Assembly (NCBI RefSeq): GCF_003584685.1
Contig: NZ_AP018549.1
Coordinates: forward strand, 930,001 to 994,000
DNA: 64,000 nt
Direction: 5' to 3'
Source: Lactobacillus paragasseri
GTDB lineage: Bacteria > Bacillota > Bacilli > Lactobacillales > Lactobacillaceae
Under the pieces are notes generated by a model. It worked only from the letters and a program-made list of their open reading frames with translations, was not told where the DNA came from and did no database searches. How positions within the stretch are numbered: the stretch's first letter is position 1; each line of letters starts with the position of its first letter. Shown here piece after piece: positions 41,695 through 52,847 of this stretch. The translations under genes and the position numbers were made by a program.

Positions 41695-44600
41695 ATGCCT
41701 TTACATAATGAAATTAATAAAGTTCTTGTGATTGGGGCCGGGCCAAGTATCGTTGGAGAAGTTACAGAGTTGGACATTCTAGCTAAACAAGCTTTAGCTG
41801 CATTTGAAGAAAGTAGTATTCAAGTTGTTCTAATTAATCCTAATCCAGCAACAGTAACAACTGATCCTCGTCCAGATGTAAACGTTTATCTTGAGCCAAT
41901 GACGCTTCCCTTTGTGAAACGTATTATCCGAATGGAAAAGCCAGATGCTATTATTCCAGCTTTTGGAGGAAAGCCAGCCTTAAGACTTACTAAAGAGTTA
42001 TTAGAATCTGGAATTTTAGCTCAAATGAACATTGAGCTATTAACCATTAATAGTTTGGCTTTAAGTTTGTCAACACCTCATAATTTTTATACTTTCCTTA
42101 AGGCAAATAAGATTGCTGTGGCTAATCAATGGATCTTAGAAAAAGAAGAAGATTTAAGACGCATAGTTGAACATGCACACTTTCCACTTCTTTTGTCAAA
42201 GAAACAGCATTATCGTCCAGATAATATGATTTCATTGAGCAATTTAACACAATTAGAGCAGTATTTTTTGGATGAAGAAAATGACGACCATTTTAATTGG
42301 CAAGACTATCGATTAAGTGAAGATCTCTCTAATTGGGAAGAATTGATTTTTGATATTGTCCGTGATAATAATGGCAATTTCTGTTTTGTTGGTAATACTG
42401 GTAGCTTAGAACCAGTAGGTATCAATTCTTCTGATTCTTTACTAGTTACGCCCATTTTAACCAGGAATAACAATCAGATTCAAAGATTACGAAATTGTTG
42501 TCGCAAAATTGCTAATTGCCTTAATTTGCATGGTGCATTAAGTATTCATTTTGCTGTTAAACAGAGTGGTGAATCTTTTAACTATAAAGTGTTAAGTATA
42601 AAGCCACGCCTAACACAAACTAGCCTACTTTCATATAGAAGTGGTGTTTATTCAATTGGCTATGTAACTGCAAAAATTGCACTTGGATATAATTTAAATG
42701 AAATAACTGATCCGCAATCTGGTATTTCAGCCGCAGTTGATCCAGTACAAGACGCTTGCTTTGTAAAATTACCTTATTGGTCATTTACTGAAGCAGGCTA
42801 TAATCACTATGCTTTAAACAATAAGACTACTTCAGGTGGACAAGCACTTGGAATAGGTCGTAATTTTGAAAGTGCATTTTTAAAAGCCTTGCAATCAACA
42901 ACTGGTTTTTCTAATAATGTAACAACTTTTAATAAAGAATGTGCTAAGAGTGAAGAACAGTTACTACAAGATTTAAGTCATCCTAATGAAATGCATTTAG
43001 TAACACTTTTAGCTGCCTTAGCTAAAGGAATTAGTTATCATAAGTTACACAAACTTTTACATGTTCATTTAGTATTTTTGCAGAAATTTAATCATATTTT
43101 GATTTTATTAAAAAAGCTGCAAGCAGATGAATTAACTCCTGATTTGTTACTTAAAGTAAAAAAGAACGGGTTTTCTAATCGATTAATTGCTGAAATTATT
43201 GGACGAGAAGAAAAAGCAATTGCTGATCTATGTACAAAATGGTCAATTAAGCCAAGTTATATTGAAATTGATGGTACAGCTGGATTAATACATCCTAATA
43301 TTAAGGCAGTTTATAGTAGTTATGGGATTGAGGACGAAGTAAAACCATTAGCTAATTCTAAAAAATGTCTTCTTTTAGGGCTAAAACCATTTCAGGTATC
43401 TCTAACTGGAGAATTTGATTACATGCTCTATCATGCAGCGAAAACCTTGAAAGAGCAGGGAATTAGCCCAGTAATTATTAGTAATAATCCTGAAAGTGTT
43501 AGTGCTGCTTATGATGTATGTGACCGGGTTTATTTTGAACCAATTACTTTAGAAAATATTTTAGAAGTTGCTTGGAAAGAAAATATTACTGAAGTTGTAA
43601 CTCAGTTTTCTGGTAAACAAATTAATCAGTATCGAATTCAGCTTTTAGAGCATGGGCTGACGATTTTAGGACAACCTAATTTAAAAGAGATTTTAAAAGA
43701 AGACCATGCTGAAGAGGTATATCAAGCAGGTGTTAATCCTGTTCCTGCTCTTCAATGTGATAATGAGAAAAATATTTTTGCTTTTGTAAAGGATAATGGT
43801 TTTCCAGCTTTGATCGGTGGTACCAGCAATGGCAAGAAACAAAAGTCTGCTGTTGTTTTTGATTTACCTGCCTTACAAAGATATATTGCCGAGAATTCAT
43901 TAGAACATATAACGGTTTCTAAGTTCATTGAAGGCAAAAAATACGAAGTCACTGCTATTTCTGATGGTAAAAATGTTACTATTCCTGGAATTATTGAACA
44001 TTTCGAACAAACTGGATCACATGCCAGTGACTCAATAGCTGTTTATCGCCCCCAAAACTTATCAACTAATGATCAGCGTAGGTTACGCGATAGTGCAATT
44101 AGTATTGCAACTAAATTACACTTAAGAGGACCAGTTAATTTACATTTTTTATTAGCTCATGATCAGATATACTTATTGCAAATGAAGAGTTATTCAGGCC
44201 ATAATGTAGCCTTTTTAACTAAAGCTTTGAAAAGAGATATCACTGCAATTACCATGAAAGTTCTTTTGGGAAGTAAGCTGTCTGAATTAGAATTACCTAG
44301 TGACATTTGGCCATCAAATAACCTAATTCATGTTAAAATGCCTGTATTTTCTTATTTATCTTACCAAAGTGAAAATACCTTTGATTCCAAGATGAAGACG
44401 TCTGGAAGCGTAATCGGACGTGCCAAGCATTTACCAACAGCCTTATTTAAGGGGTATGAAGGTAGTGATTTAATGATTTCGACATATGGGACCGTATTTA
44501 TTTCTGTTAAAGATTCTGAGAAACAGAATGCAATTAAAATAGCTGCGAGATTCCACCAGTTAGGATTTAAATTGCTTGCTACTGAGGGAACAGCTAATGT

Positions 44601-44859
44601 TTTAGCTGAAGAAGGTATTACAACTGGAATTATTGGAAAGGTTCAAGAGGGTAGCAATAGTTTATTAGAAAAAATTAAGCAACATCGCATTAATTTAGTC
44701 ATTAACGTTACTAGTTTATCTGACTCTGCTAGTCATGATGCAATCATGATTAAGGATGCAGCTTTAAGTACGCATATTCCTGTCTTTTCTAGTTTACAAT
44801 CTGCGCAAGATGTACTAACGGTGCTTGAAACCTTAGCAATGACTACACAGCCATTATAA
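41695..44859 (+). CDS. carB: CarB-like protein, degenerate in both ATP-grasp halves
   Basis: A 1054-residue protein with the full CarB layout: two duplicated halves and a C-terminal allosteric MGS-like domain (about 930-1054, FKLLATEGTANVLAEEGI). In half one the ATP loop (RPAFTLGGTGGG in real CarB) is SKKQHYRPDN at 168-177, and the metal-binding Q, E-x-N are H, S-x-K (IHFA near 284; VLSIKPR at 299-305). In half two RPSYVLGGR is GGTSNGKKQ (708-716), and Q, E-x-N are H, Q-x-K (LHFL near 816; LLQMKSY at 827-833). Neither half should bind Mg-ATP normally. The frame is nonetheless open and full length. Confidence 0.85.
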   Translation: MPLHNEINKVLVIGAGPSIVGEVTELDILAKQALAAFEESSIQVVLINPNPATVTTDPRPDVNVYLEPMTLPFVKRIIRMEKPDAIIPAFGGKPALRLTKELLESGILAQMNIELLTINSLALSLSTPHNFYTFLKANKIAVANQWILEKEEDLRRIVEHAHFPLLLSKKQHYRPDNMISLSNLTQLEQYFLDEENDDHFNWQDYRLSEDLSNWEELIFDIVRDNNGNFCFVGNTGSLEPVGINSSDSLLVTPILTRNNNQIQRLRNCCRKIANCLNLHGALSIHFAVKQSGESFNYKVLSIKPRLTQTSLLSYRSGVYSIGYVTAKIALGYNLNEITDPQSGISAAVDPVQDACFVKLPYWSFTEAGYNHYALNNKTTSGGQALGIGRNFESAFLKALQSTTGFSNNVTTFNKECAKSEEQLLQDLSHPNEMHLVTLLAALAKGISYHKLHKLLHVHLVFLQKFNHILILLKKLQADELTPDLLLKVKKNGFSNRLIAEIIGREEKAIADLCTKWSIKPSYIEIDGTAGLIHPNIKAVYSSYGIEDEVKPLANSKKCLLLGLKPFQVSLTGEFDYMLYHAAKTLKEQGISPVIISNNPESVSAAYDVCDRVYFEPITLENILEVAWKENITEVVTQFSGKQINQYRIQLLEHGLTILGQPNLKEILKEDHAEEVYQAGVNPVPALQCDNEKNIFAFVKDNGFPALIGGTSNGKKQKSAVVFDLPALQRYIAENSLEHITVSKFIEGKKYEVTAISDGKNVTIPGIIEHFEQTGSHASDSIAVYRPQNLSTNDQRRLRDSAISIATKLHLRGPVNLHFLLAHDQIYLLQMKSYSGHNVAFLTKALKRDITAITMKVLLGSKLSELELPSDIWPSNNLIHVKMPVFSYLSYQSENTFDSKMKTSGSVIGRAKHLPTALFKGYEGSDLMISTYGTVFISVKDSEKQNAIKIAARFHQLGFKLLATEGTANVLAEEGITTGIIGKVQEGSNSLLEKIKQHRINLVINVTSLSDSASHDAIMIKDAALSTHIPVFSSLQSAQDVLTVLETLAMTTQPL

Positions 44860-50428: not shown

Positions 50429-51499
50429 TTAATCTTGATTCTTATGTCTATTGATCTTATTGAGAGCAGCTTTTTGCTTTTTTTGATCTACGTGAGTATA
50501 CAAGTCAGTTGCCGTAGTTCCTTTTTGACCTAATTGTTGTGCTACGAGAACTTGATCTTTAGTTACTTCGTACAGCTCACTGGCCAAAGTATGGCGTAAT
50601 TTATGCGGTGTTAGAGGTTTTCCAAAAGCAGCAGAATATTTATTGACCATCTTTTCAACAGCATTTGCAGTCATTCTTCTGGTTTTTCCATGCCATCTGG
50701 TTAAAAAGAAGGCTATATCATCTCTATCTGCATGGTAGCGATCGGCACGTATTTCTTGATATTTTTTTAAATAAGGAATAGTCCAGTCAGCAATCGGGAC
50801 ACTATCTTTTTGACCACCTTTTCTAATCACATCAAGCATTTCATCTTTTAGGTTAATGTTACGAACATTCACACTAACACATTCTGAAACTCTAATTCCT
50901 GTACCTAAAATCAATGCAATAATAGCGATATCACGTTCATGATTTTTTTTGAAAGAAGGTAGAGACTGTTTATTACATTTATGCTCGTATTCATTTTCAA
51001 TAAAATCTAAAAATTGATATTTTAAATCACCCATGTACATATGAGATTCTAGAACATGAGCTCGGTAATTCAATGTCTTAGTATCATTCAACGAATTAAT
51101 TTTTAACATGACATTACGATCAAAGTATGGTTCTCCATGATTATTGTCTGAGGTAATTGTTAAAAATTTATATAAAGAACGCAGGGCATTAATTGATCGA
51201 TTAATTGTAGTAGGTGAGTTTAATCGTCCTTGTTGGTTTTTGGTGTGTTTAAGATGATGAATATAAAGCATAACATCATTTCGTTGCATGTCTTCTAGTG
51301 TCACTAGTTCAATTTCTTTATTGGAAGAAGCTGTAGATAATTTATTTTGTCTCAACCAATCAAAAAAGCGACGAATTTCTGTTAAATATTGGTATGTTGT
51401 AGTTAATGAATGAGTGGTGCCAAGATTATATTCTTTTACAAAATCAGGCATATTCGCCAACTCTTGTTTAATTAAGGATAAATATTTGTTAGTTTCCAA
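50429..51499 (-). CDS. xerS: XerS-type tyrosine recombinase
   Basis: A 356-residue tyrosine recombinase of exactly the length of streptococcal XerS and similar throughout, including SINALRSLYKFLT and GEPYFDRNVM. Catalytic residues are Arg203 (GTGIRVSE), Lys227 (RKGGQKDS), His299 and Arg302 (HKLRH) and the nucleophile Tyr334 (DLYTHV). The second His/Trp position (LGH in most) is Gln325 (LGQ). Start is TTG 51499 with GAGGAGA 8 bases upstream. XerS alone resolves chromosome dimers at difSL in streptococci; a different dif-like site lies 1.2 kb away here. Confidence 0.9.
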   Translation of the reverse strand: METNKYLSLIKQELANMPDFVKEYNLGTTHSLTTTYQYLTEIRRFFDWLRQNKLSTASSNKEIELVTLEDMQRNDVMLYIHHLKHTKNQQGRLNSPTTINRSINALRSLYKFLTITSDNNHGEPYFDRNVMLKINSLNDTKTLNYRAHVLESHMYMGDLKYQFLDFIENEYEHKCNKQSLPSFKKNHERDIAIIALILGTGIRVSECVSVNVRNINLKDEMLDVIRKGGQKDSVPIADWTIPYLKKYQEIRADRYHADRDDIAFFLTRWHGKTRRMTANAVEKMVNKYSAAFGKPLTPHKLRHTLASELYEVTKDQVLVAQQLGQKGTTATDLYTHVDQKKQKAALNKINRHKNQD

Positions 51500-52739
51500 T
51501 TTATAGTCTCCTCGAACATAGGTTTGTATATATTATATCTTATTTAAGCAATTTAGTCTTGTCCCCTAATCTTTTCTAAGTAGGAGAGGGGGGAGAGTAT
51601 CCATAAGTAAGAAGAAATTAGATAAATAATAACCTGAAAATGTAGAAGTTAGTTTACAGATTGCTAGGAGGAACATAACTAAAACTGGAATGCGAAAATT
51701 CTAAGGTAATTTAATAATTGATGAACTGAAAAGTTAATTTAAATTAATTTGGCAAATTTCAAGATAATTAAGGAGTTGATTATATAATTTAGAATTTGAT
51801 TGAAATAGTATTTATTAACTATATATTTATTAACTGAGGCGTTAAGGCTGTATAAATGTTTGGATTTAATTAGAGGAGAACGGGATATAATTTCTAATTA
51901 AACATTAAACTAATTCACAGGAATTTTTTGCTGAAACTTACAGCTTTTTGGTATGTATGAGGAGGTTTTGTTCTTAGTATTTTGAAGACACCGATAAGAC
52001 ACTAATCAAGTGTAATTTTAAAGGTAAAAATAGAATTTTATAATAATTAAATGTAATTTGTAAGCATTGATTATCAGCAAAACATTGATGTTTCGGGAGA
52101 GTCTCTTATACCTTTCATTAAAATTATTGTTTTAATGAAAGACCATTACGTATATATTGATAATTCTAGACTTTAATTTTAATAAGAAAATAAATTAAAA
52201 TACCCGCAATAACAATTGATAGATAAAAATTATTATGACCAGGTTTACTATGATTATGCTTTATCTCTTTTTACCTTTTATTTTGAATGTTTCATAATAA
52301 TTTTAAGAAATATTCAACTTAGTATCTAGCATATCCGAACTAACATGATCTAATTAAAAGCTTACTGGATTTAGATGAAAGAAATGTATCATGAACAAAA
52401 AAGTTTCGCATCCAGTAATTTATGAGTTCTTATAGCTAACAACTTAACAACTATTAATCAAGAACCATTTTAAAAGACGTAGAATCGTCATCTCAGCACT
52501 AAAGAAATAATCTAATCTGATTAATTGATAAAAATCTTTAGCTTAGTATTTTCAGCTGATTAATAAATGAAATAGAGGCTAAGGAAGATTTCTGACTGTA
52601 AAAAGATTAATGTGTTCTAATTGAAATGCTAGTAAATTTAAAAATGATTTTTAAAAAGTAACTTTTGATAAATAGTAGATAATTAGTTGATTGACTGTTG
52701 ATTGTGATTAATTACAAATATGATATATTTTTAAATATT
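51500..52739. other. Gene-free, AT-rich spacer (terminus region)
   Basis: No frame with a plausible start, ribosome binding site and length is seen. It contains a -10 for xerS (ATTATA on plus, 51532-51537) and several inverted repeats: CTTTCATTAAAA/TTTTAATGAAAG (52112-52123 with 52130-52141, perfect 12-bp arms, 6-base loop), TTACTGGAT/ATCCAGTAA (52362-52370 with 52410-52418, 39-base loop). These lack T runs, so they are not standard terminators. Confidence 0.7.
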
Positions 52740-52767
52740 ACTTTACATAATATATATTACACGAAGT
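52740..52767 (-). other. dif: dif-like site (chromosome dimer resolution)
   Basis: The 28-bp site contains TTTACATAATATATATT (52742-52758) and ends in GAAGT (52763-52767). Against the Bacillus subtilis dif, as I recall it and on the reverse strand, 24 of 28 positions agree, including the full XerD-type half and the 6-bp centre. It lies at the junction of gene orientation in the window. Recall of the reference, not a database search, is the limit. Confidence 0.75.
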
Positions 52768-52804
52768 ATAGTCAAGATGAACTAAGCTACTCTCTTTTAT
52801 AAGT

Positions 52805-52838
52805 AAAAAAACTTTGAGTTTTATCATTCTCAAAGTTT
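52805..52838 (-). terminator. Terminator of the DUF1275 gene
   Basis: On the minus strand AAACTTTGAG pairs with CTCAAAGTTT, followed by a T run (52805-52811 on plus). Confidence 0.85.
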
Positions 52839-52847
52839 CTCTATTAA

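Follow-up and report, generated by a model that had tools for sequence, protein, structure and literature searches.

A canonical dif and a difSL-like palindrome as candidate sites of two dimer-resolution systems at the replication terminus of Lactobacillus paragasseri

As judged from sequence comparisons, the replication terminus of Lactobacillus paragasseri very probably carries two chromosome dimer-resolution systems, i.e., XerC/XerD with a canonical dif and XerS with a separate palindrome, either of which can be lost. The stretch of DNA analyzed here (the window, 64,000 nucleotides) represents positions 930001-994000 of a genome assembled as a single contig of 1,937,632 bp (1.94 Mb). In the arrangement we propose, XerC and XerD would recombine dif and XerS would recombine the 30-bp palindrome; in each case, site-specific recombination between two copies of the site would resolve a chromosome dimer to monomers when the cell divides, with FtsK presumably controlling both modules. 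The assignment of enzymes to sites is supported by their co-retention and co-loss across genomes, and we infer binding, cleavage, FtsK dependence and the activity of both modules.

The dif site lies at 52740-52767 and reads ACTTTACATAATATATATTACACGAAGT on the plus strand and ACTTCGTGTAATATATATTATGTAAAGT on the minus strand. On the latter it has the canonical 28-bp form ACTTCGTGTAA-TATATA-TTATGTAAAGT, with a presumed XerC arm at 52757-52767, a central 6 bp at 52751-52756 and a presumed XerD arm at 52740-52750, the arms being assigned by the dif sites of B. subtilis and E. coli. An earlier note on this DNA had described the site as dif-like; its sequence was confirmed, including the identity on the reverse strand at 24 of 28 positions with B. 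subtilis dif. By chance, a position reaches at least 24/28 with a probability of about 6e-10 to 1.5e-9, which corresponds to an expectation of 0.002-0.006 for the whole genome. When the whole genome was searched with a degenerate dif pattern, allowing up to three mismatches, a single place was found (52740-52767). The site combines a conserved XerD arm and a variable XerC arm with a 6-bp center, and its right arm (TTATGTAAAG) is constant in most relatives. The sequence of dif is nearly constant even between genera in which XerS shares only 33-46% identity with the window protein. By its sequence, the 28-mer is an ordinary chromosome dimer-resolution site for XerC/XerD.

Its position agrees with that of a terminus. 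With dnaA starting near base 68 of the contig, dif lies at 50.7% of the circle from dnaA. The cumulative GC skew, calculated for the window and 30 kb beyond, reached its maximum at 52706, 34 bp outside dif (about 50 bp); this is the turning point for which the earlier note had proposed to look, and dif is present there as a single copy. Sampled GC skew was positive in all nine stretches ahead of the peak and negative in each of the 11 that follow. The strand bias of GAAGAAG, the polar heptamer of Lactococcus type, also flipped at dif, from 24:3 before it to 4:16 after it. The B. subtilis-type SRS motif (GAGAAGGG) was dropped because its occurrences were too rare. Both dif and the palindrome lie in a gene-free stretch of 1.35 kb (51500-52847), which has no open reading frame of 100 or more amino acids, as the earlier note had stated for the surroundings of dif, and no Rfam match.

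Four tyrosine recombinases are encoded in the genome, i.e., XerS, XerD, XerC and a phage-type integrase. The gene next to the gene-free stretch (50429-51499, minus strand, TTG start) encodes a 356-residue protein scoring 486 bits against NF003462 (cut-off 267), which upholds its previous identification as XerS; it is 91% identical to L. johnsonii XerS. Residues R203, H299, R302 and Y334 are invariant in 84 aligned XerS proteins. The third catalytic histidine is replaced by glutamine in 72 of the 84, comprising nearly all Lactobacillaceae, whereas streptococci keep the histidine. The XerC and XerD genes, found by the genome search that the earlier note had suggested, are about 120-150 kb from dif, in the orders trmFO-xerC-hslV and xerD-GNAT-scpA-scpB-rluB (gene names taken from translations). 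Both proteins retain the catalytic residues R, K, H, R, H and Y and, because they are intact, there is no need to suppose that XerS has moved to dif. The XerS profile was matched at E≤1e-30 in 60/60 good-quality Lactobacillus genomes; in G044 and G074, however, the match was no stronger than XerC/XerD themselves would be expected to give. Two proteins of XerC/XerD type are present in most of the genus. In several Lactobacillus genomes an additional member of the XerS family is encoded (L208-L216), with 43-48% identity to the terminus XerS, and no palindromes in common were seen upstream of these paralogues (about 45% identical). In G016 xerS is split into two frames (L217), which reflects a pseudogene or else an error of assembly.

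The candidate XerS site emerged when k-mers were searched in the sequence preceding xerS in 41 genomes after masking of dif. This yielded a single strong motif, the best 13-mer being present in 29 genomes compared with 13 in shuffled DNA. In the window it is a 30-bp palindrome at 52112-52141, CTTTCATTAAAA-TTATTG-TTTTAATGAAAG, in which perfect 12-bp arms (52112-52123 and 52130-52141) flank a 6-bp center (52124-52129). It is located between xerS and dif, 612 bp from the former and about 600 bp from the latter, and is single-copy in the genome at up to three mismatches. Most genomes have the version CTATCATTAAAA-CTATAA-TTTTAATGATAG, and the 14-base core in most relatives, AAAACTATAATTTT, is that of streptococcal difSL; on the same strand the window has AAAACAATAATTTT. 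The core was detected in 60 of 75 Lactobacillus genomes (a reversed control pattern was found in one) and in none of 21 XerS-negative genomes.

Among 28 distinct versions of the palindrome, seven of the 12 arm pairs had changed on both sides, in 28 cells compared with 9.7 ± 2.4 after shuffling, a control weakened by the relatedness of the sequences; sliding the partner arm destroyed the signal. Equal arms that covary are consistent with one recombinase, as the unequal ones of dif are with two. In seven genomes of the gasseri/johnsonii group, 89% of columns in dif and 77% in the palindrome were invariant, compared with 8-11% in the sequence around and between them. Conservation within 51500-52847 was limited, in these close relatives, to dif, the palindrome and some 50 bp immediately preceding xerS. 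Other genera have a palindrome 53-90 bp ahead of that gene, with an AAAA-N6-TTTT center and arms that are different yet symmetric; in the acidophilus/crispatus-like group dif and the palindrome are both less symmetric. These sequence features suggest that the palindrome is likely the target of the adjacent XerS, a homologue of difSL and not difSL itself. It had been overlooked in the earlier note and would supply the other purpose for XerS that the note had left open. The asymmetric 6-bp center is reversed relative to xerS, with the arms unchanged, in G021, G024, G034 and G009. Another genome, G008 (L111), has phage lysin, holin-like and structural genes between xerS and a palindrome with a damaged right arm, possibly representing integration of a phage into the XerS site.

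Genomes that lack one module retain the other. A dif with no more than two mismatches in 22 was present in 14/20 XerS-negative Lactobacillaceae from other genera. Within Lactobacillus, the closed genome G074 has an exact consensus dif and two XerC/D proteins, with neither xerS nor the palindrome; about 110 bp separate dif from the next gene, where relatives carry the palindrome and xerS. This was the only closed Lactobacillus genome with a clean joint absence of both. G044, the second XerS-less genome, has a weak, non-palindromic match to the core 42 kb from its dif. Three others were left out as XerS-less genomes, i.e., G004, whose contig ends 429 bp from dif (xerS may be unassembled), and G026 and G073, which are without a chromosomal-type XerS but fragmented.

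Loss of the XerC/XerD module was seen in G009, G020, G042 and G046, which have XerS and the palindrome (degenerate in G046, at 22/30), lack XerC and have no XerC/D pair. Around xerS, no dif-like site better than 20/28 was found within 95-97 kb in G020, G042 and G046, or within 77 kb in G009. The incomplete genomes G039, G040, G047, G056 and G057 likewise appear to be XerS-only, and four of the five carry the palindrome upstream of xerS. The skew turn is 0.2 kb from the palindrome in G042 and about 2.2 kb from it in G020 and G046. Since dif is missing where XerC is missing and kept in XerS-less genomes, these results support one of two options raised by the earlier note, i.e., that XerC and XerD encoded elsewhere use dif while XerS serves another site. 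G020, G042, G039 and G056 have one XerD-like protein left (L239, L243, L244 and L245), 44-52% identical to the window XerD, in which several catalytic residues are lost and the scpAB gene order is kept.

Where both modules are present they are probably redundant in function, and this would account for the repeated loss of either. The same losses could mean instead that only one module is active in the window species, the other being a decaying remnant or retained for plasmid dimers or, in the case of XerD, for SMC unloading. Such a reading, which we consider rather unlikely although far from negligible, would accommodate the disappearance of either module from some genomes, the at least four changes to the XerS-only state on the XerS tree (a gene tree rather than a species tree), and the persistence of dead XerD proteins beside scpAB in XerS-only genomes. 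However, the catalytic residues of XerC and XerD, the four invariant residues of XerS and both sites are all intact and under purifying conservation, which speaks against this reading. Points that count against the two-module arrangement itself are the single closed genome with a joint absence of xerS and the palindrome, the weak core match in XerS-less G044, the lower symmetry of the two sites in acidophilus/crispatus-like genomes, the degenerate palindrome of G046 and the glutamine in place of the third catalytic histidine of XerS.

The spacing of the three elements bears on a different possibility, that the palindrome is not a recombination site but regulates xerS or another gene as an operator, or acts as its terminator. 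Palindromes are a common shape for operators, and in several genera this one lies 53-230 bp before xerS. In nine genomes, however, xerS has been displaced to 4-13 kb away (3.5-12 kb from the palindrome) and the palindrome is still beside dif, at 0.4-1.3 kb. The order dif-palindrome-xerS was kept even then, and the intervening genes sometimes encode a transporter or phage lysis functions. In the examples checked, GC skew turned at the dif-palindrome pair and not at xerS. As the two sites stay together and the skew turns there, the terminus is marked by the pair, and a role of the palindrome as an operator of xerS is very unlikely. It also shares the difSL core, has a 6-bp center, is single-copy and has no GC-rich stem, so that a purely regulatory role appears improbable. 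Least probable of all, and hardly credible, is the other option of the earlier note, that XerS has switched its specificity to the canonical dif and XerC/XerD do something else: dif does lie 1.24 kb upstream of xerS (0.5-1.3 kb in most of the genus), but XerS has its own difSL-like palindrome near its gene, XerS-less genomes retain the same dif with XerC/D, XerS-only genomes lose it, dif does not follow a displaced xerS, and its unequal arms are typical of a two-enzyme site while those of the palindrome are equal and covary.

Returning to two dimer-resolution modules, a broader scheme can be put forward tentatively. Two active, independent systems would share one terminus, with lineages repeatedly dropping one of them; where XerC and dif were dropped, a catalytically dead, DNA-binding XerD would have stayed in the scpAB operon, probably for SMC unloading, in parallel to the XerD-like protein of streptococci, and the XerD-arm palindromes near streptococcal xerS would serve as the sites to which the latter binds. 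The dead XerD beside scpA-scpB in XerS-only lactobacilli does resemble the streptococcal XerD-like protein. In 13 of 20 streptococcal genomes we observed XerD-type arm palindromes, TTACATAA-N4-7-TTATGTAA, mostly with N6 and one or two per genome (L135-L164); 16/18 were no more than 7 kb from xerS, frequently 5 bp past its stop codon, and a reversed control gave none. They are candidates for sites that the XerD-like protein binds or that serve SMC unloading. A similar search for XerD-arm sites in XerS-only termini was set aside, as three copies of TATTATGTAAAG lay at the same codons of carB and are explained by coding constraint. The window has a carB-like gene at 41695-44859, and an XerD-arm-like sequence occurs at the same place of carB in four XerS-only relatives, most simply because of its codons.

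Only one intermediate between the two-enzyme system (XerCD-dif) and the one-enzyme system (XerS-difSL) had been noted before, without its sites. All three states occur in this genus and their sites are now available, making the switch from the former system to the latter directly testable by single and double deletions, and the dead XerD beside scpAB offers a way to separate the recombination role of XerD from its role in SMC unloading.

Among known systems, B. subtilis XerC/XerD-dif (CodV/RipX) matches the first module in its 28-bp site (24/28 identical), the location of that site at the skew turn and the gene order trmFO-xerC-hslV; it differs in that the window has a second recombinase with its own site within 1.3 kb. 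The background on XerS/difSL and XerD-SMC follows a review (PMC5357621) and citations in PMC8357415. The streptococcal and lactococcal XerS-difSL system shares with the second module an XerS family equivalog and a site upstream of xerS, i.e., an imperfect inverted repeat around an ACTATAA core, which is streptococcal in most relatives and ACAATAA in the window. However, difSL is an asymmetric 31-bp site with half-sites TTTCCGAAAA and TTTTCTTGAAA, as quoted in the review (PMC5357621), and in streptococcal loci the sequence about 50 bp before xerS reads ATCTTTCCGAAAAACTATAATTTTCTTGAAAAAT, in agreement with these half-sites. The window site has 30 bp and perfectly symmetric arms of other sequence (CTTTCATT/AATGAAAG, compared with CTTTCCGA/CTTGAAA in difSL). 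Moreover, it lies 612 bp rather than about 50 bp from xerS, and coexists with intact XerC/XerD and dif. A text search, covering mainly literature outside subscription journals, found no paper later than the survey of Kono et al. that names an XerS site in Lactobacillus. In the survey of Kono et al. (2011; PMC3025954), L. helveticus DPC 4571 had xerC, xerD and xerS, with xerS near the skew shift; neither dif nor an XerS site was found, and an evolutionary intermediate was proposed. Compared with that report, both types of site have now been identified, not only in the window species but throughout most of the genus, with divergent forms in genomes of acidophilus/crispatus type.
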